Shown here: positions 28,474 to 40,382 of the stretch, piece after piece
Layout: every line of letters begins with the position of its first letter
How positions within the stretch are numbered: the stretch's first letter is position 1
Origin: an uncultured Pelagibacteraceae bacterium
GTDB taxonomy: Bacteria > Pseudomonadota > Alphaproteobacteria > Pelagibacterales > Pelagibacteraceae
Assembly: GCA_902594335.1 (NCBI GenBank)
Contig: CACJLY010000002.1
Span: 62,001-126,000, forward strand
DNA: 64,000 nt
Reading direction: 5' to 3'
Translations under genes and position numbers: made by a program
Notes under the pieces: generated by a model
What the model was told of the DNA's origin: nothing
What the model saw: the letters and a program-made list of their open reading frames with translations, nothing else
Database searches by the model: none

Positions 28474-29499
28474 ATGGGCAAGAAAAATGTTCTTATATGT
28501 GGTGCTACTGGATATATAGGATTACAATTAACTAAACTTTTATGCACACATAAAAAAATAAATATTAAATATTTGTGTGGAAGTACTTCTGTCGGAAAAA
28601 AAATAGATTCCTATGAACAAGAATTAAAAAAATATAAACTACCAAAAATATCAAAATTTAAAAAAGAATATTTATCAAATGTGGATATAATATTTACAGC
28701 ATTGCCAAATGGTGAGGCACAATATATTTCAAAATTTTTAAATAAAAATAATTTATTAATAGATCTAGCGGCTGATTTTAGACTTAATAATAAAAAAGAT
28801 TATGAAAAATGGTATAAAATTAAACATAAAGCATTAAATCAAATCAAAAAAAGTATTTACTCTATACCTGAAATTAGTGGTAAATTAATTAAAAAATTTC
28901 CAATAGTATCTTGCCCTGGATGCTACCCTACATCTGTATTAATTCCATTAATCCCGTTAATAAAAAAAAACTTAATTAATAATCAAACAATTATTATTGA
29001 CTCGAAATCTGGTTATTCAGGAGCTGGTAGAGGAGTACATAAAAAATATAAAGATAAAAATTTATACGAGTCTTTGAGTGCTTATGGATTAGCAAATCAT
29101 AGACATAATTCTGAAATTCAACAAGAGCTAGATCTTAAAACTGGCAAAAAAAATAAATTTCATTTTACACCTCATCTTACACCGATGTTTAGAGGAATTT
29201 TAAGCACTATTTATGTTGATTTAAAAAAGGGCATAAACATAAACAAAATAATTAATGTTCTAAATGTTCAATATAAGAATTATAAATTTATAAAAATCTG
29301 TAAAATAAATACTTTCTTAAGTACTAATGATGTTATCGATACCAATAATTGCTTTATTTCTGTATGTAAAAGCAAATATAAAGATAAAATAATAATATTG
29401 TCTGTAATTGATAATTTGATTAAAGGTGGTGGAGGTCAAGCTGTACAAAATATGAATAATTACTATGGATTTAATCAGAGCGAGGGTCTAAATGTATAG
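28474..29499 (+). CDS. argC: N-acetyl-gamma-glutamyl-phosphate reductase
   Basis: NADPH-dependent reductase of arginine synthesis. The Rossmann motif GATGYIGLQL is at the N-terminus; the catalytic Cys is in SCPGCYPTS near residue 150, and a LANHRHNSEI segment carries the active-site His. The 341-residue length fits the type 1 ArgC. The 3' end overlaps the next small gene by eight bases. Confidence 0.95.
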   Translation: MGKKNVLICGATGYIGLQLTKLLCTHKKINIKYLCGSTSVGKKIDSYEQELKKYKLPKISKFKKEYLSNVDIIFTALPNGEAQYISKFLNKNNLLIDLAADFRLNNKKDYEKWYKIKHKALNQIKKSIYSIPEISGKLIKKFPIVSCPGCYPTSVLIPLIPLIKKNLINNQTIIIDSKSGYSGAGRGVHKKYKDKNLYESLSAYGLANHRHNSEIQQELDLKTGKKNKFHFTPHLTPMFRGILSTIYVDLKKGININKIINVLNVQYKNYKFIKICKINTFLSTNDVIDTNNCFISVCKSKYKDKIIILSVIDNLIKGGGGQAVQNMNNYYGFNQSEGLNV

Positions 29500-29698
29500 A
29501 TATATTTTTTTAATTTTATTAATATTTTCATTATCACATTGTTCAATAAATCATCCTGTCTCTATGTGGAATATTGAGGACGACAGTACTGACAAAGATA
29601 TTTCGAAATTAAACTTTGAAAATGAAACATCTTTTGACGAATTTAAAAAAAATGTTATCCAATATGGTAAGATCAGCGACTTTCCTAAATTAGATTAA
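29492..29698 (+). CDS. Small predicted lipoprotein of unknown function
   Basis: 68 residues: a hydrophobic leader with lipobox LSHC (Cys17), then a short acidic, hydrophilic mature part (about 50 residues) with no recognised domain. It is sandwiched between argC (eight-base overlap) and hom (four-base gap), so it is expressed with amino-acid synthesis genes although its product is probably in the envelope. The clean signal and tight packing argue that it is real. Function unknown. Confidence 0.65.
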   Translation: MYRYIFLILLIFSLSHCSINHPVSMWNIEDDSTDKDISKLNFENETSFDEFKKNVIQYGKISDFPKLD

Positions 29699-29702
29699 TT
29701 TA

Positions 29703-30992
29703 ATGAATAAAAATATAAATATTGCTGTTATTGGACTTGGTCAAATTGGATCATATATTCTAAATGAGTTAAATACAAAAAAGAAAGATATTGAAACTAA
29801 AACTGGAAAGAGAATTAAGGTTATAGCTATATCGGCAAAAAATAAAAATAAGAATAGAAAATTTAGAATTAATAAGAAAATTTTTTATTCAAATCCACTA
29901 GATATTTTGAAGATTAAAAACTTAGATATAGTAATCGAAGCTATAGGTTTATCAGATGGTATTTCAAAAAAAATTATTGAGACAGCTCTTAAAAATAAAA
30001 TTCATGTTATAACTCCAAATAAAGCATTAATTTCAAAACATGGTGATATACTGGGAGAATTAGCTGAAAAAAATAAAGTTAATTTAGAATTTGAGGCATC
30101 TGTTGCAGGCGGTATTCCTATTGTAAGAACAATCAAAGAAGGTTTGGCTACAAATAAAATCACAAAAGTTTATGGAATACTTAACGGTACTTGTAACTAC
30201 ATAATGTCAGAAATGGAGAGAACTAAAGATAGTTTCAAAAATGTTCTGAAGATGGCACAGATATTAGGTTATGCTGAACCTGGAAATCCAAAGTTAGATC
30301 TTAACGGTTATGATGCGTTAGCTAAAATAAAAATTTTGACATCATTAGCTTTCAATAAGAAAATTTCAAAATCTGAATGTTTAATGGAAGGTATTGAAAA
30401 CATCGATTATGCAGATATTAAAATTGCTGATCAGTTAGATTTTAGAATAAAATTATTAGGTATAACTGAGATTATAAATAATAGTATTTTTGAAAGAGTT
30501 CATCCATGTTTAGTTAAAAAAGACTCTTATATAGGAAATGTAGATGGTGTAATGAATGCTGTTATATTAAATGGTTCACCTATTGGAGAGTCTGTATTGC
30601 AAGGGGAGGGGGCTGGACCAGGACCAACATCCTCTGCTTTGATGTCTGATTTATTATCTATATTGAGAGGAAATATAAAATATCCTTTTGGTATATCTAA
30701 AAATAAAAGATTAAAACCTAAAATATTTAATAAAGACCAATCATCAAATTCTCTTTATTTAAGATTAGAAGTTAAGGATAAACCAGGTGTTTTATCTTCT
30801 ATAACAAAGATTCTTGCAAAGTATAAAATTTCTATTCAAAGATTAATACAAATACCTGATCATAAGAGTAAGACAGCTTCGATTGTTCTTATTACTCATA
30901 ATGCAAATGAATTAGACGCACAAAGATGTATTAAATCATTTAAATCAAATAAAAATATTATTAAAAATCCTGTTCTTATTCGATTATTTTAA
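29703..30992 (+). CDS. hom: Homoserine dehydrogenase
   Basis: Reduces aspartate semialdehyde to homoserine, the branch point for Thr and Met. N-terminal Rossmann motif VIGLGQIGSYI, GILNGTCNYIMSEM and the GYAEPGNPKLDLNGYDALAKI catalytic region, then a C-terminal ACT domain from LYLRLEVKDKPGVLSSI, which usually gives Thr feedback control. The 429 residues are typical. Homoserine made here would feed the metY enzymes nearby. The stop overlaps the next start by one base. Confidence 0.96.
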   Translation: MNKNINIAVIGLGQIGSYILNELNTKKKDIETKTGKRIKVIAISAKNKNKNRKFRINKKIFYSNPLDILKIKNLDIVIEAIGLSDGISKKIIETALKNKIHVITPNKALISKHGDILGELAEKNKVNLEFEASVAGGIPIVRTIKEGLATNKITKVYGILNGTCNYIMSEMERTKDSFKNVLKMAQILGYAEPGNPKLDLNGYDALAKIKILTSLAFNKKISKSECLMEGIENIDYADIKIADQLDFRIKLLGITEIINNSIFERVHPCLVKKDSYIGNVDGVMNAVILNGSPIGESVLQGEGAGPGPTSSALMSDLLSILRGNIKYPFGISKNKRLKPKIFNKDQSSNSLYLRLEVKDKPGVLSSITKILAKYKISIQRLIQIPDHKSKTASIVLITHNANELDAQRCIKSFKSNKNIIKNPVLIRLF

Positions 30993-31891
30993 TGGAACTT
31001 TATATAAAATTATTTGAAGTTCTTTTTCCAGTTTTTTTTATAGTTGGTATTGGATATTTTTTAGGTAAAAAAAATCCAAATTTTGATACATCATTTATAA
31101 CTACTTATTCTGCTAATTTTGGAACGCCATCTATAGTAATATTCTCTATTTCGGCAAGTGGTGTAACTTTTGCAATGTTTTCAGAGTATTTTTTATATGC
31201 AGTAATTCTTTTATCCTCTTTTTTAATTGTTGGGCTAATTTTTTTAATTTTGATGAAGAAAGATTATTTGCGAGAACTACCAACATTTTTTTTACCTAAT
31301 ACAGGCAATATGGGTATTCCAATATGCTTGTTTGCATATGGTAAATTGGGTATGGGTATTGCGGCAGCTATATCTTCTTTGGTCGTTCTTCTTCATTTTA
31401 CTCTTAATATTTTTTTAGCTAAACGTGAGTTTGATTTAAAGGTTATAATAAAAAGTCCATCATTTTATGCAATAATTGCTACCATTATTTTTCTATATTA
31501 CGAAATACCTTTGCCAATATTTGTATTGAATACTGTTATGCTTCTAGCTTATGGAATGATAGTAATGATTTTAATGTCTTTAGGAGTTTCATTAACACAA
31601 ATGAAAGTTTTTTCCTTTAAGGATGCTCTAATTACATCTATCGGAAGAGTTATTATAGGGCCACTAATTGGCTTTTCGCTGATCTCTTTTTTTAACCTAT
31701 CTGGGTTTGCTGCTGGTGTTCTTTTAATTCAGTCATCTATGCCAAGTGCTATACTTTGTTATCTTGTTGCTTCAATGTATTCGCCTAAGGAAATTGTTGA
31801 TAACATATCTAGCACAATAGTTGTTTCAACTTTAATGTCTCTTGTAACTATACCCATAACTGTATTCTTTGCTTTAAAATACTTTAATTAA
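30992..31891 (+). CDS. AEC-family (auxin efflux carrier) transporter
   Basis: 299 residues, almost entirely hydrophobic, with about ten transmembrane helices. The segments PNTGNMGIPICLFAYG and QSSMPSAILCYLVASMY correspond to the two conserved crossover motifs of the AEC/BASS fold. Such carriers move organic acids or amino-acid-like anions. It overlaps hom by one base, so a link to homoserine or threonine export is possible but unproven. Confidence 0.85.
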   Translation: MELYIKLFEVLFPVFFIVGIGYFLGKKNPNFDTSFITTYSANFGTPSIVIFSISASGVTFAMFSEYFLYAVILLSSFLIVGLIFLILMKKDYLRELPTFFLPNTGNMGIPICLFAYGKLGMGIAAAISSLVVLLHFTLNIFLAKREFDLKVIIKSPSFYAIIATIIFLYYEIPLPIFVLNTVMLLAYGMIVMILMSLGVSLTQMKVFSFKDALITSIGRVIIGPLIGFSLISFFNLSGFAAGVLLIQSSMPSAILCYLVASMYSPKEIVDNISSTIVVSTLMSLVTIPITVFFALKYFN

Positions 31892-31907
31892 AAGATAAGA
31901 TTTTCAT

Positions 31908-32768
31908 ATGAAGGCTGTTATTCTCAATGCATCAGCTTGGATGATTGTTCCATTTATGGATGCTTTGGCAAAATATTTAAGTTCATCTATGGATGTTTTA
32001 CAAATTACTTGGGCTAGATATTTTTTTACAGTTGTCTTTGCACTCTCAATAATGCTTTTTTTTGATAGAAAATCCATGGTTTGGAGTAAAAAACCTATGC
32101 TTCAATTGATAAGAGGATTGATTTTTGTATTTTCAACATATTTATTTTTTTTTGCTATATCTGAGATTTCTTTACCCAAGGCCTTAACTCTAGCATTTGT
32201 TGCCCCAATTTGTGTAACTGCAATGTCCCCCTTTTTTTTAAACGAAAAAGTAGGCTTAAGAAGGTGGACAGCAGTATCCATGGGTTTTATTGGTACCTTA
32301 ATTGTTATTAGACCTGGATTTATAGAGATTAATTTGGCTACATTAGCAGCCCTAGGCAATGGTATTTGCTATGGTTTTTACTTAATTATTACAAGAAAAT
32401 TAAGTAGCTCTGATAACTCTCTATTAACTTTATTATTTGCTGGCACAGTAGGGACTATTGTCATGTCTTTATTTATGCCCGGTGTTTGGATACAGCCATC
32501 AAATAGTCAGTGGATTATGATGGCTTTAATTGGCTTCATAGCAGCTATTGCCCATCTTTTTATCATTTTGTCTCTCAAATACGCTGATGCTTCTAAATTA
32601 GCTCCCCTTGGCTATACTGAAATTATTACTAATATATTACTTAGTTATTATATATTTCAAGAATTGCCAGATAATTGGACATATTTAGGTCTTTCTTTAA
32701 TAGTCCTTTGTGGTATTTATATATCTAGGAGAGAGTATTATTTATCACGAATTTATCTAGGTAAGTAA
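31908..32768 (+). CDS. EamA/DMT-family transporter
   Basis: 286 residues, ten predicted transmembrane helices in two EamA repeats (PFMDALAKYLSSS and ITWARYFFTVVF in the first, GFYLIITRKLS in the second). This is a common SAR11 drug/metabolite-type exporter; substrate unknown. It is the last conserved core gene before a long stretch without genes that opens the accessory island. Confidence 0.85.
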   Translation: MKAVILNASAWMIVPFMDALAKYLSSSMDVLQITWARYFFTVVFALSIMLFFDRKSMVWSKKPMLQLIRGLIFVFSTYLFFFAISEISLPKALTLAFVAPICVTAMSPFFLNEKVGLRRWTAVSMGFIGTLIVIRPGFIEINLATLAALGNGICYGFYLIITRKLSSSDNSLLTLLFAGTVGTIVMSLFMPGVWIQPSNSQWIMMALIGFIAAIAHLFIILSLKYADASKLAPLGYTEIITNILLSYYIFQELPDNWTYLGLSLIVLCGIYISRREYYLSRIYLGK

Positions 32769-33294
32769 TACTTACTAATATATTAATGTAATACTTTAAG
32801 TTTATATAATATATAATTGTAATTTAATGCTTTTTTAAATAAAATTAATTATTTAATGTTTTTTCATTTTTTTATCTTAATAATTAATATCGTAAAAAAA
32901 AGTCTTATTTTTAATGAATTAATTTATAATTTTTTCCTAATTAGACTAGATCTGATGAGAATAGAGTGGAGAATAAATACCAGTTTATAAATAAAATTAG
33001 AATTACAAAAACTTAGTGATAAATAACTTAAAAAATAAGCAAATATAGCAATATTTTGATAATTATATGTTTCAAGGACATATTATTAAAGTTTTTTCAA
33101 AAAATTATAATTAAATTTTTAGGAGAAAAAAGGTGATTTTGAAATAGCTCTGCAGTATTCGAATATACCGTTTAAAAGCCCATAAGAGTGTCTATTTTAA
33201 GTGTTTGTAATTTTACAGTGCAACTTATAGATGATATTAAAAAATAAATACCAAATATTGTATATTAATCAAAAAACGTTGATATTTAACATTT
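32769..33294. other. Long intergenic stretch without genes at the island's left edge
   Basis: 526 bases with no convincing open frame on either strand, unusual for this compact genome. An inverted repeat GTAAGTA/TACTTAC (32761-32775) overlaps the preceding stop. AGGAG at 33121 followed by GTG opens only a four-codon frame, possibly a decayed gene start. The palindrome TATTCGAATA lies at 33156-33165, and the 10-base word GAATATACCG at 33161-33170 recurs at 33811-33820, bracketing ogt and the structured RNA. Otherwise it is featureless AT-rich sequence. Confidence 0.5.
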
Positions 33295-33570
33295 TTAGAT
33301 CGAAATACTCTCTAATTTTAGTAATTTTTTTTTGGTATTTATGCCACCTCTACCCGAATAGCCCCCTAAGGAGCCATCTGATCTTATTACCCGATGACAA
33401 GGTATTTTAGGAGCATAAGGATTTTTTCCTATGGCGTTAGCTACAGCTCTTACTGCTTTTGGCTTTTTAATTGCTTTTGCTACTTCAGAATAGGTTCTAG
33501 TTTGACCTTTAGGTATAGTTTTTAAATATTTCCATACTTTTAATTGAAATTTTGTGCCCTTAAGGATCAT
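33295..33570 (-). CDS. ogt: Methylated-DNA-protein cysteine methyltransferase, catalytic domain only
   Basis: DNA repair protein of the Ogt/MGMT family, 91 residues from the ATG at 33570. The active site PCHRVI is intact (Cys present, so a true methyltransferase rather than an ATL protein), with the helix-turn-helix AKAIKKPKAVRAVANAIGKNP and the GGYSGR segment. The N-terminal ribonuclease-like domain of full-length Ogt is missing, a common short form. A frame extending 31 codons upstream is rejected because those codons coincide with the RNA hairpins and terminator. No clear ribosome-binding site is free upstream. Confidence 0.85.
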   Translation of the reverse strand: MILKGTKFQLKVWKYLKTIPKGQTRTYSEVAKAIKKPKAVRAVANAIGKNPYAPKIPCHRVIRSDGSLGGYSGRGGINTKKKLLKLESISI

Positions 33571-33576
33571 ATATAG

Positions 33577-33618
33577 AAAAACCCTGTTTCCTTGCACCTT
33601 TTCAGGTACAAAGAACAG
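33577..33618 (-). terminator. Intrinsic terminator at the end of the structured RNA
   Basis: On the minus strand, CTGTT (33618-33614) pairs with AACAG (33588-33584), and inside it TTGTACC (33611-33605) pairs with GGTGCAA (33598-33592), giving a long stem with a short loop. GGG and a run of five T (33581-33577) follow. The ogt ATG lies only six bases beyond the T run. Confidence 0.65.
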
Positions 33619-33795
33619 TAGTTTTTGGCACGTCGTTGTATGCGCTACCGCCATGCCGTCCACCCTACAATTTTAGCGCTACTCTGCAGAGCTTTCTGCC
33701 CTCTAGGCTTGAACCTCTCGGTTTTTCCCTAGCTGGTCAGTTAAGAGTTGCCTCTTAATTCATTTAAGACAATATCAGATAGAGTAGGTTGTATG
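33577..33795 (-). ncRNA. Structured noncoding RNA of unrecognised family
   Basis: About 220 bases, visibly GC-richer than surroundings and without a plausible ORF of its own. Minus-strand order of hairpins: TTAAGAG-GCAA-CTCTTAA (33758-33741); CTAGG/CCTAG enclosing AACC-GAGA-GGTT (33732-33703); GCAGA-AAGC-TCTGC (33699-33686); GGCATG/CGTGCC (33657-33627); and a terminator. CAACCTAC (33791-33784) can pair with GTAGGGTG (33668-33661), seven of eight, closing the first three hairpins into a multi-branch. Two GNRA tetraloops occur only on the minus strand, which sets the sense. It is not RNase P, SRP, 6S or tmRNA as far as I can tell. It may be a free sRNA or a leader for ogt. Confidence 0.6.
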
Positions 33796-33865
33796 TATCA
33801 CTTTATCGTTGAATATACCGAGTTTTTAACAGGGATGAATAGTGGGGATAACTTAATCTAAAGCT

Positions 33866-34339
33866 TTAAGTAAACCATCTAAAACCCTCGTACATTGCAA
33901 TTCCGTAAATTGAGTGTCTGATTAAAAACATAACTGATGTTTTAATAGGTATTCCAGTCTTATTTGCAAAAATTCCTTGTCCTGTAAAAGGAAGAAATAT
34001 CAATAATGGAGCTAATGTTGTAAGAGCTCCAAATATAAAGCCTGAAAAATATGTCATTTTTAGACCTACCATTAAAAAACAAAAATAATAGATTACAGCC
34101 CAACAAATCGATACATAATAGTGAAAAATCCAACCAAAAATGACCTCATACCTAACATTGGGCATTTGAGCAATATTTGGGTTATAAAAAGTAGCATTTT
34201 TAAGCATATAATAGGTCCATCTTCCAACAATTCCCCAAGATGGTTCCGGAATACCCATCAATTTGAGTAAATAACCCAGAATATCAAGAATTATGCACGA
34301 AAATATTCCAGCAACTAAAATACTAATTATATCTACCAA
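33866..34339 (-). CDS. DUF2938-like integral membrane protein
   Basis: 157 residues with about four transmembrane helices. The pattern (opening ILDILGYLLK, GRWTYYM, a GWIFHYYVSICWAVIYY helix, GALTTLAPLLIFLP and a terminal RHSIYGIAMYEGFRW) fits the DUF2938/YagU-like family of unknown function. It follows a 54-residue membrane protein by six bases, suggesting a two-gene unit. The structured RNA lies just downstream on the same strand. Confidence 0.75.
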   Translation of the reverse strand: MVDIISILVAGIFSCIILDILGYLLKLMGIPEPSWGIVGRWTYYMLKNATFYNPNIAQMPNVRYEVIFGWIFHYYVSICWAVIYYFCFLMVGLKMTYFSGFIFGALTTLAPLLIFLPFTGQGIFANKTGIPIKTSVMFLIRHSIYGIAMYEGFRWFT

Positions 34340-34345
34340 ATAACC

Positions 34346-34510
34346 TCAAAACATTAATAAAAATAGTAAAACAAATATGCTTATAAAAAATATTCCAAAA
34401 ATAACCATTAAAATTCTATTTTTGATTTGTTCTTTCAGTTTTGGCCAATAATTCATAATAAGGAATGTTCCAACAACAACTATTAGACCAATTAAAACAT
34501 ATTTAGGCAT
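34346..34510 (-). CDS. Small two-helix membrane protein, hypothetical
   Basis: 54 residues starting MPKYVLIGLIVVV. Two hydrophobic helices (about 4-20 and 36-53) flank a basic, polar loop (NYWPKLKEQIKNR). It ends six bases before the DUF2938-like gene on the same strand. No family recognised. The Met start, membrane topology and tight spacing support a real gene; without homologues this remains moderate. Confidence 0.55.
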   Translation of the reverse strand: MPKYVLIGLIVVVGTFLIMNYWPKLKEQIKNRILMVIFGIFFISIFVLLFLLMF

Positions 34511-34533
34511 TAGGAATCTTTTACATTAAATAC

Positions 34534-34562
34534 TTGACTTATAAAATGTGTTATATTATATT
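34534..34562 (+). promoter_or_regulatory. Candidate promoter of the tyrosine recombinase
   Basis: TTGACT (34534-34539), a 17-base spacer and TATATT (34557-34562), each one mismatch from consensus. Transcription would start about 34569, inside the left arm of the inverted repeat. A repressor or the recombinase itself binding that repeat would be well placed to block this promoter. Confidence 0.45.
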
Positions 34563-34588
34563 TCCGATAATTAATGGTTATCGGAAAT
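34560..34588. repeat. 11-7-11 inverted repeat resembling a tyrosine-recombinase core site
   Basis: Left arm ATTTCCGATAA (34560-34570), spacer TTAATGG, right arm TTATCGGAAAT (34578-34588): perfect 11-base inverted arms around a seven-base centre, ending two bases before the recombinase ATG. The geometry (two 11-base arms, 6-8 base overlap region) and the inner ends ATAA...TTAT match Xer/dif core sites; the right arm agrees with the E. coli XerD arm at 8 of 11 positions from memory. It could also be an operator or an mRNA hairpin. Confidence 0.6.
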
Positions 34589-34590
34589 TT

Positions 34591-35508
34591 ATGAAAGATC
34601 TTATTACAGATGTTAAAAAGCTAGAAATTGAAACACTCGAAAATCTTAAGAATTCAAAGTCTAATAACACAATACGTGCATATGATGCCGATTTTAAAGA
34701 TTTTACATTATTTTGTAGAAATAATGGTCTAAGTCCACTTCCAACTGAACCTAAAGTATTATCTATATACTTAACTCATTTGTCTAAAACTTGCAAATTT
34801 AGTACTTTAAAGAGAAGAATTGCCTCAATTAAAGTAGTTCATAAAATGAAAGGTCATTACTTAGACTCAAAACACCCAATAATTATGGAAAATCTCTTAG
34901 GGATAAAGAGAATTAATGGCTCACATCAGAAAGCAAAAAAACCATTACTAATCAATGATTTAAAATTATTAATTAATGTAATAGATGAATATGAAACTAA
35001 AGATTTATTAAAAATTAGAAACAAATCATTGATACTAATAGGATTTTCAGGAGGCTTCAGAAGATCTGAGCTTGTAAATATAGACTACGAAGATGTTGAA
35101 TTTGTTCCCGAAGGTTTAAAAATATTTATTCAAAAATCGAAAACGGATCAATCTGGAGAGGGACATCTAAAAGCAATCCCCTATTTTAAAAATTCTGAAT
35201 ATTGCCCAGTAATAAATCTGAAACAATGGTTTAATTTTAAAAATATTCAAAAAGGTAAGATTTTTGATATATCTGACAAATCAGTTGCGCTGATAATAAA
35301 AAAATACATATCAATAGCAGGTCTAGATCCAAATAAATATAGTGGTCACAGCCTAAGATCAGGTTTCGCTACTTCGACAGCAGAAGCAGGTGCAGAAGAA
35401 CGGAATATCATGGCTATGACTGGTCATAAAACTACTCAGATGGTAAGAAGATATATACAGGAGGCAAATTTATTTAAAAATAATGCTTTAAATAAAATTA
35501 AAATTTAA
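34591..35508 (+). CDS. Tyrosine recombinase / phage-type integrase
   Basis: A 305-residue site-specific recombinase from ATG 34591 (a longer frame from a TTG would read through the promoter and repeat). An N-terminal SAM-like core-binding domain (NTIRAYDADFKDFTLFCRNN) precedes the catalytic domain: Arg I in GGFRRSELVNI, a Lys in SKTDQSGEG, H-x-x-R as HSLRSG, His in TGHKTT and the nucleophile Tyr in VRRYIQEA. All catalytic residues look intact. No excisionase or phage genes are near. It overlaps the convergent FkbM gene by 11 bases. It may act on the adjacent inverted repeat and promote island turnover; this is inference. Confidence 0.9.
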   Translation: MKDLITDVKKLEIETLENLKNSKSNNTIRAYDADFKDFTLFCRNNGLSPLPTEPKVLSIYLTHLSKTCKFSTLKRRIASIKVVHKMKGHYLDSKHPIIMENLLGIKRINGSHQKAKKPLLINDLKLLINVIDEYETKDLLKIRNKSLILIGFSGGFRRSELVNIDYEDVEFVPEGLKIFIQKSKTDQSGEGHLKAIPYFKNSEYCPVINLKQWFNFKNIQKGKIFDISDKSVALIIKKYISIAGLDPNKYSGHSLRSGFATSTAEAGAEERNIMAMTGHKTTQMVRRYIQEANLFKNNALNKIKI

Positions 35509-36253
35509 CATTTAGTAAATTTGATCCACCTCTTACAAAAATACAGTCAAACTGTAAAAGAAATGACCTATTATTACCAAGTCTTTTTAAATCAAATATA
35601 TCATATAGCCTATAATCTTTTTTTTTCATGTAATTCATTACTTCGTTAAAAAGAGGTGAGCCTTTATTATAATTATGAATTGATACTTCTAATATAATTA
35701 CCTCAAAATAGTTTAAATAGCTTTTTAAACCATCAATTACTTTTAATTCTGCTCCTTGTACATCAATTTTAATCAAATTATTTGAATAATTTTTTAATTC
35801 TAAAGGTAACTCATTGTCTAAAGTAGATGATTTTATCATCTCTTTTTTTCTGGCATGGCTAGTATTTTCCTCAAATATTGAAGAACCATATCCCATATTA
35901 TAAAAAGTATAATATTCATCACTATTAGTTAAAAGACAGATTTTATAATTTAGGTTTTTATATTTTAATTTTAATTTTTCTAAACTAGGTTTATTATTTG
36001 TATCAGCATCAAATAAAAAATATTTTGAAGAAGGATAGACCTCAAGAAGTTTATTTGTCCACTGACCATAACCACTACCAACATCAATAATATAGTTAGG
36101 TATAAATTTATTATATTTGAGTAATCTTAAAACAGTATTAGAATTTGTAACTTGGTTTTTATTTTGATACTTGTGATTAAGAGTAAAATCATAAGTAATA
36201 AAATGTCTAAATAGCCTACTAAGTCTTTCTAAAGATTTATTAATGAAAAACAT
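35498..36253 (-). CDS. FkbM-family SAM-dependent methyltransferase
   Basis: 251 residues. The SAM-binding glycine motif is IIDVGSGYGQW near residue 55, with an acidic residue in YFLFDAD; later LIKIDVQGAELKVIDGL is the FkbM signature. Such enzymes O-methylate sugars or glycans. It is the distal gene of a minus-strand glycosyltransferase series, so surface polysaccharide methylation is the likely role. Confidence 0.88.
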   Translation of the reverse strand: MFFINKSLERLSRLFRHFITYDFTLNHKYQNKNQVTNSNTVLRLLKYNKFIPNYIIDVGSGYGQWTNKLLEVYPSSKYFLFDADTNNKPSLEKLKLKYKNLNYKICLLTNSDEYYTFYNMGYGSSIFEENTSHARKKEMIKSSTLDNELPLELKNYSNNLIKIDVQGAELKVIDGLKSYLNYFEVIILEVSIHNYNKGSPLFNEVMNYMKKKDYRLYDIFDLKRLGNNRSFLLQFDCIFVRGGSNLLNVKF

Positions 36254-36258
36254 TTTAA

Positions 36259-37284
36259 TTAAATATGCTTATAAATTTTCCTCGCAGATTTTACTATATC
36301 ATTATTTAAAAATGAAAAAGTAAAATTCATTCCTTTACACCATTCAGAATAACTTATTTTTTGGTGATAAACATCTTTTTTAGTTTTAATGTCAAAGTTA
36401 AATAAATTATGACATTTTTTTTGATGAAAAAATGATAAATGACCAACTATACCCTCTTTGGCTACATTTATCTTGGACTCTTTTAAAATGTAAAATAAAT
36501 TAAGTGCATTTACTTTTTCAAGATAAAAAGTTTTTTGATTAATTGAATTTTTAGTGTGTATATAATTTTTTGTATCTATAATTGAGTAATTTTGTTTAAA
36601 ATAAAGATTAAAATTATCAGAAATCTTATTACTTTCTAAGTCAGAAGAAAACAAAACATATTCGTATTTTTTATGGAGTACAGACATAAGATAATCAAAT
36701 TCCTTAATACCCCAACCTAATTTATTAAAAAATAGATATCTAAATTGAAAGAAAATAAATTTTTTAGGTAGAATATTTTTAAGTTTTTTATTTATTTTGG
36801 GAATATTTAGGGATAAATAATCGTTATCATATATATCATTATTTTCTAACAGATCTAATTGTAAATCACGATAACTTTTTGAATTTATTTTATTTCTATA
36901 AATAATTTTGTATTTGTATAAATATTTTCTAAGATATTTTGATGGTCGTAATTTTTTTTCACTATCATAAACAATCGAATAAAATTTAATATTTCTAAAT
37001 ATAAATGGTAAAATGAAATAAAAACTCTTTGGTGTTAATATATAAACTTTTTTGTAATTATTTAATAAAATATCAAGAAAAATAAATAATTTATCAATAA
37101 TAGTTAAATTAAAATTAACCACTTTGATTTTTTTATTTATAAAAAAAAAAGAAAAGCCTGCATTTAATTCTGATAAATATATTTTTATAGAACTGTATCT
37201 ACTAATCAATGAAGATATTAGTTTTAAGGATGTAAATAGATCTCCTGCTCTATCATTTTTTAATATTAAAATCTTATCGCTCAT
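36259..37284 (-). CDS. Glycosyltransferase, GT9 (heptosyltransferase)-like
   Basis: 341 residues. The N-terminus KILILKNDRAGDLFTSLKLISSL matches the GT9 nucleotide-sugar-fold opening (xRxGDxxxxxP type), and KFIFFQFRYLF / GWGIKEFDYLM begins the second Rossmann half. A conserved GIVGHLSFF near the C-terminus replaces the usual GPxH donor loop. The middle is extremely Lys/Ile/Asn rich. It overlaps the preceding glycosyltransferase by 11 bases. Donor and acceptor are unknown. Confidence 0.65.
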   Translation of the reverse strand: MSDKILILKNDRAGDLFTSLKLISSLISRYSSIKIYLSELNAGFSFFFINKKIKVVNFNLTIIDKLFIFLDILLNNYKKVYILTPKSFYFILPFIFRNIKFYSIVYDSEKKLRPSKYLRKYLYKYKIIYRNKINSKSYRDLQLDLLENNDIYDNDYLSLNIPKINKKLKNILPKKFIFFQFRYLFFNKLGWGIKEFDYLMSVLHKKYEYVLFSSDLESNKISDNFNLYFKQNYSIIDTKNYIHTKNSINQKTFYLEKVNALNLFYILKESKINVAKEGIVGHLSFFHQKKCHNLFNFDIKTKKDVYHQKISYSEWCKGMNFTFSFLNNDIVKSARKIYKHI

Positions 37285-38266
37285 TATTTGTTATTTTTTG
37301 TAAAAACTTTTTTGAGGCGTTATGCCATGTCTTTGTCCCTCTCTTAGATAGAAGGTTTTTTCTCAAAGTCATCCATAAATCATCATTTGAAAAAATATCC
37401 ATAATATAATTACTAAATTTTTCTCTATTATTTGCAATTAATCCAGTAATATTATGTTCTACTCTTTCTGATAAAGATCCAATACCCATTGTAACTATTG
37501 GTATGCATAGTTCTTGAGCTTCTGAAGCAGCAAGACAATATAATTCAGCCTTATGACCTGGAAGTATGATAACTCTGGATTTAATTATTTGATTTATATA
37601 TTCATTTTTATCAACAAAATTCCTATTAAATATTCTAAAATTTTTTAGATTTTCATTTATAGGACTAATGTAAAGTTTTAACTCTTTCTTCTTTGGAAAA
37701 ATATTTGATTTCCAAACATCTATTAATATATCAAGATTTCGATCAGTTCTTGAAGTAAACATACCAAGCTCATTGTCAACATTATCTTGAATGGATTTAT
37801 TAATAATGAGTTCATCTAATCCATAATCTAAAATTATGGTTCCATATATAGAAAAGAGCTTTGACATTTTAGCTTTATGATAATTACCAAGTAATAAGTA
37901 TGTAGGTTTATTCTTTAAGTACGATTTTAACTGTTTTTTTCTTATAAACTTTTCAATATTTTGTAAGCTGTGCGATAGAACATATTTTCTAATTGCTGAT
38001 ACTTTGTCAAGAAGACGTGTATCGTTATTTGAAATAGCAATATCAAAATGAAAGTCATTGATATTAACTCTGTTAATATTTAACCATGAATAATTTTTAA
38101 TTTTATTTTCTTTTGAGCAATTATTAAAAACAAATACCTCGTGACCTAATTTACTTAAATTTACTGACAGATTTATTAAAACATTCTCTGCCCCACGTAT
38201 AAATGGTTTATTGATATCATTATAATTATATTGAAATTCTGTTTTATCTAAAAAACAAATTTTCAT
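37274..38266 (-). CDS. Glycosyltransferase, GT4-like
   Basis: 330 residues with a GT-B architecture. The N-terminal half has FIRGAENVLINLSVNLSKLGHEVFVF, the acceptor-side GAE motif of GT4 enzymes. The C-terminal half has IILPGHKAELYCLAASEAQELCIPIVTMGIGSLSERV, with the E-x7-E donor-binding pattern. No membrane segment. It sits one base after the larger fused glycosyltransferase and overlaps the GT9-like gene, forming one transcription unit for glycan assembly. Confidence 0.82.
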   Translation of the reverse strand: MKICFLDKTEFQYNYNDINKPFIRGAENVLINLSVNLSKLGHEVFVFNNCSKENKIKNYSWLNINRVNINDFHFDIAISNNDTRLLDKVSAIRKYVLSHSLQNIEKFIRKKQLKSYLKNKPTYLLLGNYHKAKMSKLFSIYGTIILDYGLDELIINKSIQDNVDNELGMFTSRTDRNLDILIDVWKSNIFPKKKELKLYISPINENLKNFRIFNRNFVDKNEYINQIIKSRVIILPGHKAELYCLAASEAQELCIPIVTMGIGSLSERVEHNITGLIANNREKFSNYIMDIFSNDDLWMTLRKNLLSKRGTKTWHNASKKFLQKITNNER

Positions 38267-38267
38267 G

Positions 38268-40382
38268 TTACTTTTCCCAATAAAACTTTGAATTTATGCC
38301 TAGTGTTTTTTCAATAATAAATTTTGCAACAATGTTTGAATTGAAATATTTATGATATTTATTCCAGCCATTTTTTGCAATTATTCTTCGTTGTTTGTCA
38401 TCATTTTTATATTTTTTTAATTTTTCAGATAAATCTAATATATCATTATAAAAAATAATTTCCTTATTTGAAAAAAAATTATCATATTTTGTGTCTTTAT
38501 GAATAAAAGTGAGAATACCGTTACCTATTAATTGAGCCATTCTATCACTACTGTAATACTTTACTGGCTTGCCTCTACTTAAATTTAGTCCCATTTTTGA
38601 ATTTGATAAATTACTCAAGAATTCCTCACCCCATACGGGTTGTATATTGAACATTCCATAAATATCAAAATTTATATCTTTACAGTACCGTAATAATTTT
38701 TTAATAAATAATTCTCTTTCATCCAACTTACCCTCTCTCAAAATACCCCTGTGGACTCCATGACTAATTGCATAAAAAACGTCATTTTGAGGAGTTTTAT
38801 TAAAAATTTTTAAATTATCTAATGCTGAGTCACAGGGATTTGGCATAAAAAAAGAATTTTTAATATTAAAATCTAAAGCATCAGGGTCAGTTGTAATAAA
38901 AGATGCATCAATTAATTTATCTTTATCTAAAATTCTAGATTTATTTTTAAAATAATCTGGTCCTTTTTTTGATAATGGATCCAGGAACCATTGTGCGATT
39001 TTCAATCTATTATATTTTGATTTCATATCGTCTAACATTTGACTATTTATTTTATCTGCATGACCAAAGATGACTAGATCAGGTTTAAAATTATTTATTG
39101 TTTTTTCAATTAGATTGTTAAGAAAATTTGCACCAGAATAGTCTTTAATGGATTTTGCAAAGGTTATTAGATCTCGATCAGATAAACTTAAAATGTTATG
39201 TCCCAATCTAATTAGACCGTTATTAATTCGTGTACCAGTGTTAAAATGTAACCTACCAAAATATCTTTGGTTAAAATTAGTTATATGAATTATTTTAAGT
39301 TTACTTTTTCTATCAACATTGAAATGAAAAGTTTTATTGATCATTAATCTAACTTTATCAATTTTTTTTGTAATTATTTTATGATCTAATTTAAAATTCT
39401 TAATTGATAAAATTTGTAATTTTCTTCTTAAAATTTTATTATCTATTAAAATTTGAATTTGCTTAAAGAGTTCATTCTCATCTAATTTTTTTAAAATTAT
39501 TCCATTAGTAATAGTTTCAGGTAAACCTCCCCTATTACTGACAATTGTTGCACATCCTCTACTAGAAGCTTCAAGTCCTGTTCTACCTAAAGGCTCTTCC
39601 CACCTTGAAGGAACAACTGCTATACTAGATTTTTCAAATAGTTTAATAACTTTGTTATGTTCAATAAAACCTTTTACATCAAGACGGGGGTGATCAAAAA
39701 AATGTTTTTCTCTTTCTTCATCACCAACTACAATACTTTGCCAATTTACATTTTTATTAAGAATTTTAATTATTACTTTTCCAAAAATATCATAACCTTT
39801 TTGAGAATTTAACTTTCCAACAAATATAATAATTTTCTTTTTTTTATTAACTATGTCTAAACTTTTAATTTTATTTGTTGAATGAGGTATAACGATAATC
39901 TTTTTTAATAAGACATCATTTATTTTTAAATCTTTTATAAATCTATTTTTAATCCATTCACTAATTACAATAATAAATCTACATTTACTCAATAAAAACA
40001 ATCTATCATCATCTGATTTGGAACCACTCATAGATAATGGATCATTATGATAATATAATATTAAATTTGTATTGATTTCTTTATGTATGTGTCTTGCATA
40101 TAAAGGTCTATTATGTATCTCAATCAAATCTGATTTTCTTTTCTTTTCAACATCTAAAAAACTTTGAACATATAATTTACTAGTACTATTCAAAAATTTT
40201 TTTTTAAGATTTAAATTGTAATATTTAATATTGAAACCTTTTTTATAACTAGTATTACCAAAAACAGTAATATTTTTTTTAAACGAACTTATTTTTACTG
40301 TATCTTTTACAAATAATGAAACAGCCCCAGCATATTCTGGTGAGAAATTTTCTTTATATGGAAGTAATATTGATATTTTCAT
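38268..40382 (-). CDS. Double glycosyltransferase: GT4 domain fused to a CgeB/DUF3880-like domain
   Basis: 704 residues in two GT-B modules. Residues about 1-340 are GT4: ILLPYKENFSPEYAGAVSLFV, KKIIIFVGKLNSQKGYDIF, and VVPSRWEEPLGRTGLEASSRGCATIVSNRGG with the E-x7-E pattern. From about 360, KIIHITNFNQRYFGRLHF opens a second module resembling CgeB/DUF3880 glycosyltransferases, with KPDLVIFGHAD, AQWFLDP and a C-terminal KYYSSDRMAQLIGNG. Two sequential sugar transfers by one polypeptide are plausible. It overlaps the GIY-YIG gene by 29 bases. Confidence 0.8.
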   Translation of the reverse strand: MKISILLPYKENFSPEYAGAVSLFVKDTVKISSFKKNITVFGNTSYKKGFNIKYYNLNLKKKFLNSTSKLYVQSFLDVEKKRKSDLIEIHNRPLYARHIHKEINTNLILYYHNDPLSMSGSKSDDDRLFLLSKCRFIIVISEWIKNRFIKDLKINDVLLKKIIVIPHSTNKIKSLDIVNKKKKIIIFVGKLNSQKGYDIFGKVIIKILNKNVNWQSIVVGDEEREKHFFDHPRLDVKGFIEHNKVIKLFEKSSIAVVPSRWEEPLGRTGLEASSRGCATIVSNRGGLPETITNGIILKKLDENELFKQIQILIDNKILRRKLQILSIKNFKLDHKIITKKIDKVRLMINKTFHFNVDRKSKLKIIHITNFNQRYFGRLHFNTGTRINNGLIRLGHNILSLSDRDLITFAKSIKDYSGANFLNNLIEKTINNFKPDLVIFGHADKINSQMLDDMKSKYNRLKIAQWFLDPLSKKGPDYFKNKSRILDKDKLIDASFITTDPDALDFNIKNSFFMPNPCDSALDNLKIFNKTPQNDVFYAISHGVHRGILREGKLDERELFIKKLLRYCKDINFDIYGMFNIQPVWGEEFLSNLSNSKMGLNLSRGKPVKYYSSDRMAQLIGNGILTFIHKDTKYDNFFSNKEIIFYNDILDLSEKLKKYKNDDKQRRIIAKNGWNKYHKYFNSNIVAKFIIEKTLGINSKFYWEK

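Follow-up and report, generated by a model that had tools for sequence, protein, structure and literature searches.

An IMES-2 RNA gene in a Pelagibacteraceae genome: conserved hairpins, a loop-loop contact and a DnaA-box-like upstream element

Results

Genomic Setting of a GC-Rich Structured Element

The window, by which we mean the whole analyzed stretch of 64,000 nucleotides of Pelagibacteraceae DNA, contains a tyrosine recombinase gene (PF00589, plus strand, 34534–35508) and a gene for a 6-O-methylguanine DNA methyltransferase (MGMT; PF01035, E 7.8e-34, minus strand, 33298–33570), with a structured RNA encoded on the minus strand between them. MGMT is the downstream neighbor of this RNA and not part of it, as its ATG at 33570 lies six bases past the terminal U run. 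A longer, mechanically predicted MGMT frame (33295–33663, minus strand) begins at a GTG inside the RNA; because the frame is extended in this way, automatic annotation may hide part of the RNA, and the true start is likely the ATG. On the far side of MGMT, approximately 500 bases (32770–33290) are very AT-rich and hold neither an open reading frame of 60 codons nor an Rfam match. Within 28474–40382, the main open reading frames are on the plus strand left of approximately 33 kb and on the minus strand from 35.5 to 40.4 kb, and near 34 kb the cumulative GC skew begins to fall, a pattern compatible with a replication terminus.

The first-pass annotation, made from the sequence alone, had described a GC-richer block that folds as a structured RNA on the minus strand, and both observations hold. 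The GC content of 0.445 at 33600–33799 is the highest of any 200-base window in 32000–35499, windows further off ranging from 0.145 to 0.37. For the minus strand of 33577–33795 the folding energy is −76.7 kcal/mol (z −5.96), a value that none of 200 shuffles reached, against a z of −2.49 for the plus strand (2 of 200 shuffles as low). The putative transcript (33765–33577, see below) gives −69.2 (z −5.87, 0 of 200 shuffles as low).

The Element Is a Copy of IMES-2

A cmscan of the window against all 4227 Rfam families returned five tRNAs and one IMES-2 (RF02035), and no other match. The IMES-2 match runs on the minus strand from 33765 to 33625, covers model positions 1–141 and scores 159.3 bits (E 6.7e-42), approximately 105 bits above the family cut-off of 54.7. 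The element is a complete copy of a catalogued SAR11 RNA that already has its name in Rfam. IMES and similar marine motifs had been listed as candidates at first pass, correctly, and the Rfam search proposed there leads to this known family; the accompanying view of the element as the strongest candidate for an undescribed one was wrong. The window copy resembles RF02035 in its full-length match, in its nested helices, which form and covary in relatives, and in its marine SAR11-type host, the hosts being known from sequence titles and a class-wide sample. The Rfam model ends before the last hairpin (P5), and its nested structure line has no loop-loop contact.

IMES-1 and IMES-2 are sister names derived from marine sequences; high abundance in marine RNA pools is ascribed to the IMES-2 family, and the SAR11 bacteria that carry it count among the most abundant cells of the ocean. 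A search for IMES-1 (RF02034) matched 0 of 247 Pelagibacterales genomes, and no control matched either. In the literature searched we found no study of IMES-2 function. The accessible portions of PMC5069720 and PMC2864571 contain the name IMES 0 times, and a squid genome paper, in its accessible part, names IMES-2 among possible environmental contamination.

Other RNA classes were considered as well. The cmscan gave no match in the window to RNase P RNA, SRP RNA, alpha-type tmRNA or 6S RNA (RF00013), in line with the first reading of the motifs. A tmRNA is further rejected by the separate tmRNA locus present in 16 of 16 relatives, and 6S RNA by the lack of a match in any of 58 Pelagibacterales genomes, in a search with stricter filters whose controls were detected. 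IMES-2 and 6S RNA (187 model positions) are both stand-alone structured RNAs of similar length, but IMES-2 is a row of hairpins whereas 6S RNA is a single long bulged hairpin. A degraded protein gene is likewise rejected: the longest open reading frame wholly within the RNA has a median of 17 codons (range 1–37).

Four Covarying Hairpins and a Conserved 3′ Hairpin

Relatives were aligned with covariance models built in the present analysis. Among 89 distinct rows and 45 pairs, loop-loop pairs included, 95.1% of the cells are standard pairs and 31 of the 45 pairs show double changes. Double-changed cells number 466, whereas shuffling gives 139 on average and reached the observed number in none of 500 runs, and all five covariation measures lie above 500 of 500 shuffles and above slid controls. 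In a smaller set of 25 rows, 93.8% of the cells of the 39 nested pairs are paired, with double changes in 28 pairs. This covariation check, suggested at first pass, supports all of P1, P2, P3 and P4.

P1 (33741–33758, minus strand, as are all RNA features below) is capped by a GCAA loop; 100% of its cells are paired, double changes occur in 5 of 7 pairs (89 rows), and the loop reads GCAA in 87 of 87 rows that have letters there. P2 (33696–33740) has an internal loop and a GAGA cap, with double changes in 7 of 11 pairs of the outer and 4 of 4 pairs of the inner helix; its loop is GAGA in 84 of the 89 distinct rows and GCGA in one, four rows having no letters there. Both caps are of the GNRA type and occur on the minus strand, as had been argued when they were first used to set the polarity. 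Of the two caps, the divergent genus g2 copies (L032, L033) have retained only GCAA. P3 (33662–33692) shows double changes in 8 of 8 pairs with 95.5% of cells paired, and P4 (33627–33657) in 5 of 9 pairs with 88.8% paired; one of the modeled P4 pairs, which reads G-A in the window, is non-standard throughout the 89 rows.

The core is followed by P5, a terminal hairpin with a U run (33577–33624) that lies outside the Rfam model, ends in GGGUUUUU and is likely a terminator. Folding of 125 loci gave a strong hairpin here each time (median −22.9 kcal/mol, −18.2 at the weakest), which bears out the terminal hairpin with U run described at first pass. Between groups its sequence is altered while its shape remains similar, and compensatory changes are visible. 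At least four T directly follow P5 in 98 of 126 loci and are absent in 28; in ten listed loci of those 28 the hairpin is present and is followed by an interrupted T run or by no such run. These 126 loci include near-copies and some genomes taken twice, and the flank counts exclude the partial rows L096 and L149. A strict terminator scan reported none for the window copy at P5. One subgroup (L109, L130) carries a differently built P5 hairpin.

Based on conservation of its ends, the RNA gene would give a transcript of approximately 189 nt, with the 5′ end near 33765 and the 3′ end within the U run at 33577–33581. Of the extent first assigned to the element (33577–33795), the core (33625–33765) and P5 are thus retained, and 33766–33795 is most likely promoter. 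A possible closing long-range helix, also proposed at first pass, did not hold up. In the minimum-energy fold its partner for the 3′ strand of P3 is a stretch that precedes the predicted RNA start and is flanked by the conserved AAAGTGATA and the −10-like TGATAT. Of 95 distinct copies, 30 can form such a helix of 7 bp, fewer than in both controls (means of 35.2 copies when partners are exchanged among copies and 40.5 when the letters are shuffled); as it is no commoner than chance, we do not regard it as a conserved part of IMES-2.

A Six-Pair Contact Joins the Loops of P3 and P4

The loops of P3 and P4 can pair with each other over six positions, GCGCUA (33679–33674) with UAGCGC (33647–33642) in the window, and this contact covaries in three lineages. 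Joint variants are GCACUA/UAGUGC (L046) and GUACUA/UAGUAC (L049), and the genus g2 copies (L032, L033) have GCACUU/UAGUGC with one end mismatch; one-sided changes occur in L045, L118 and L131. The loop-loop cells are paired at 99.3% in 23 rows, 98.0% in 25 rows and 99.1% in 89 rows, with double changes in 2 of 6 pairs in the last set. Rows L075–L152 of alignment A4 come from a pattern search in which the P4 loop is fixed, and part of the invariance of that loop in A4 is therefore due to selection; the 98.0% comes from alignment A3, whose 25 rows were found by the model and are free of this selection. The contact might already be in print in the original description of IMES-2.

Comparison among relatives shows an IMES-2 core with four hairpins, GNRA loops capping two of these, together with the contact between P3 and P4 and a 3′ hairpin that a T run follows in most loci.

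Distribution Among Genomes

Of the 247 Pelagibacterales genomes searched, 108 carry IMES-2, always as a single copy; the match in G230 is cut by a contig end. It was found in 75 of the 149 genomes that are at least 90% complete, and in four of ten genera. Two genus g2 copies score 62–69 bits and the other full-length copies 136–166. In the remaining 139 genomes no copy was detectable; as these are more than half of the genomes sampled, IMES-2 looks like an accessory RNA, not a universal housekeeping one. The absence may be overstated, since models may miss very divergent copies. When 18 genomes without a match were searched with our model R1 at a lenient limit, weak matches (E 0.57–9.1) appeared in seven, and model R2, which includes the g2 copies, added one weak match among the same 247 genomes. 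The latter (G225:C20:584–729, 16.6 bits, E 0.019) may be a very divergent IMES-2 or a chance match.

Across 289 genomes sampled from the whole class there were two matches, in the window's own genome and in G001, both from the family Pelagibacteraceae. A pattern search matched at least 118 stretches, of which 78 were used (L075–L152) and L153–L192 left out; the 80 titles listed are all Pelagibacteraceae or Pelagibacterales.

IMES-2 Occurs at Three Gene Locations

Long neighborhoods were mapped for 20 of the 108 carrier genomes and for the window. The order in genus g1 is tyrosine recombinase, IMES-2, MGMT. In genera g5 and g6 the RNA follows mnmA (Pfam tRNA_Me_trans) and is itself followed by a convergent gene in 6 of 7 loci mapped (L047 being the exception), and in genus g2 transglycosylase (SLT_4) and SNase genes lie upstream and a convergent SRAP gene downstream. 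Judged by motif, the 126 loci have MGMT downstream in 85, mnmA upstream in 38 and neither in three; of these three, L051 has MGMT by long mapping and the other two are the genus g2 loci.

Two of the three locations are also seen empty in genomes without the RNA. In seven genus g1 genomes without a match, the recombinase and MGMT persist, separated by other genes or by a short gap, and G003 and G026 have mnmA followed by the same convergent gene (46–47% identity to that of g5) with no IMES-2. In G038, IMES-2 is located at mnmA while the recombinase and MGMT stand side by side without it. Given three locations, two of them seen empty, we regard IMES-2 as a stand-alone RNA gene and not as a leader of MGMT. 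A cis-acting attenuator or riboswitch of MGMT would agree with the tight spacing in the window and with the 85 loci in which MGMT follows, but elsewhere the RNA is followed mostly by a convergent gene instead of a conserved one on the same strand, SNase and SRAP genes are the neighbors in both genus g2 loci, and other genomes keep MGMT without the RNA; we hold such a leader to be highly improbable. The stand-alone RNA gene is not tied to one downstream gene, and the unit has been gained, lost or moved. On a tree of the recombinase, presence and absence of IMES-2 require three changes over 48 labeled rows, against a shuffled mean of 5.8; this quick tree has 26 of 44 inner branches open, and the fragment from G013, which is too short, was left out.

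The recombinase adjoins the RNA in the genus g1 loci mapped, and this neighborhood, together with the occurrence of the unit at three places, would fit a mobile element, moved by that recombinase, of which IMES-2 is a remnant or the attachment site. However, a close homologue of the recombinase (63–66% identity) is present in 12 of 14 genomes whether the RNA is nearby or not, the exceptions being G002 (weak matches at 26%) and G032 (none). The recombinase also has a dif-like site of its own, an inverted repeat near 34561–34587 at the start of the gene (TTTCCGATAA-TTAATGG-TTATCGGAAA in the window; in relatives the arms are of either the TTTCCG or the TTACTA type). In the two genomes sampled, each by 20 stretches of 20 kb (approximately 29% and 33% of the genome), the recombinase gene lies close to the maximum of the cumulative GC skew. 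The repeat and this position suggest that the recombinase may be a single Xer/dif system for chromosome resolution at the terminus. An exact pattern search of viral contigs and a blastn search of phages both gave no match, so that a phage or viral origin was rejected, and we consider the mobile-element explanation the least credible of those weighed here.

A Conserved Upstream Element With Tandem DnaA-Box-Like Sites

Aligned upstream regions keep, in order, TTATCCAC..ATTCACA, AAAGTGATA and a TGAT at the place of a −10 element. In the window, the conserved AAAGTGATAC (33795–33804, minus strand) is a phylogenetic footprint that includes a −35-like GTGATA (33796–33801), and a putative −10-like TGATAT, with the conserved TGAT, is located at 33772–33777. 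A scan for consensus promoters found nothing at the window copy.

Further upstream, at 33834–33851 on the minus strand, two 9-mers abut each other, TTATCCCCA (one mismatch) and then the degenerate CTATTCATC (three mismatches), scored against the DnaA box consensus TTWTNCACA. When 26 mutually divergent upstream regions were scored for two abutting 9-mers, 16 had a pair with at most three mismatches 74–88 bases upstream, compared with 0.6% of 2883 control stretches, and the other 10 had a pair with four to six mismatches. A spacing of 0 between the 9-mers is best, with a mean of 3.19 mismatches against 4.69–4.88 at spacings of 1–5. The window pair has four mismatches in total, a level reached by 3.9% of control stretches. 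Across 864 kb of SAR11 sequence, both strands, there were 0 pairs with at most one mismatch and nine with two. Single DnaA boxes are not enriched across the window as a whole. Two perfect boxes are present in L130 and one in L103.

In the mnmA group, inspection by eye places the upstream element over the end of the mnmA frame in part of the loci and after the stop codon in others. Because it accompanies the RNA at three gene locations, the element is probably part of the IMES-2 gene. A conserved, switch-like DNA element stands in front of the RNA. Judged from the box sequence, the tandem sites are candidates for DnaA binding.

The conservation of these 9-mers at all three locations also fits a locus whose main role is at the DNA level, as a site where DnaA is bound or titrated, the RNA being secondary. 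Against it, the covariation is at the level of the RNA, the boxes are often degenerate, in the window too, and in the coarse skew sampling neither the G015 copy, near the skew maximum, nor the G001 copy lies at the minimum; we think this a very unlikely account. The same two positions led us to reject a replication origin at IMES-2, and DnaA-box clusters in the sampled stretches gave no pointer to an origin.

A Probable Trans-Acting RNA

Of the readings weighed, we favor, as reasonably probable, a stand-alone non-coding RNA gene whose product acts in trans by virtue of its fold, probably with a protein, and whose transcription is possibly tied to DnaA. Transcription would start from a promoter just upstream of 33765 and run to approximately 33577, and the RNA would fold into a compact body held by the P3-P4 contact. 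Its action would depend on this shape, with a protein as the most likely binding partner, or else a larger assembly, for instance RNA polymerase or the ribosome. As the tandem DnaA-box-like sites suggest, transcription may follow DnaA activity, that is, the replication cycle.

A small RNA that regulates mRNAs in trans by base pairing, through exposed conserved stretches, would also be stand-alone and hairpin-ended, and conserved unpaired stretches exist, for example CAGAAA between P2 and P3. Yet conservation extends across the whole fold with no single seed, and the most conserved loop bases are occupied by the P3-P4 contact. No Hfq (PF17209) turned up in a search of 58 genomes of the order, while the controls in Caulobacter and E. 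coli were detected. This result weakens a classical Hfq-dependent antisense role. Such pairing is therefore unlikely in our judgment, and in its Hfq-dependent form less likely for IMES-2 than protein binding.

A more specific version of the trans-acting, fold-dependent RNA can be put forward tentatively, as a possibility on the doubtful side: a relocatable, self-contained RNA gene with a promoter controlled by DnaA through the tandem abutting boxes, yielding a replication-coupled kissing-loop RNA that works on a protein partner in cells without Hfq or recognizable 6S RNA. If control by DnaA is true, it would provide a structured RNA tied to replication in cells that apparently do without Hfq. 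The putative transcript, the loop-loop contact, the candidate regulator DnaA and the matched locations with and without the RNA make the function of IMES-2 directly testable.

Small RNAs tied to the cell cycle are described for Alphaproteobacteria in the accessible parts of two reports, on CcnA and EcpR1 (PMC8959179, PMC4414408). IMES-2 may share such a tie, as its DnaA-box-like sites hint.
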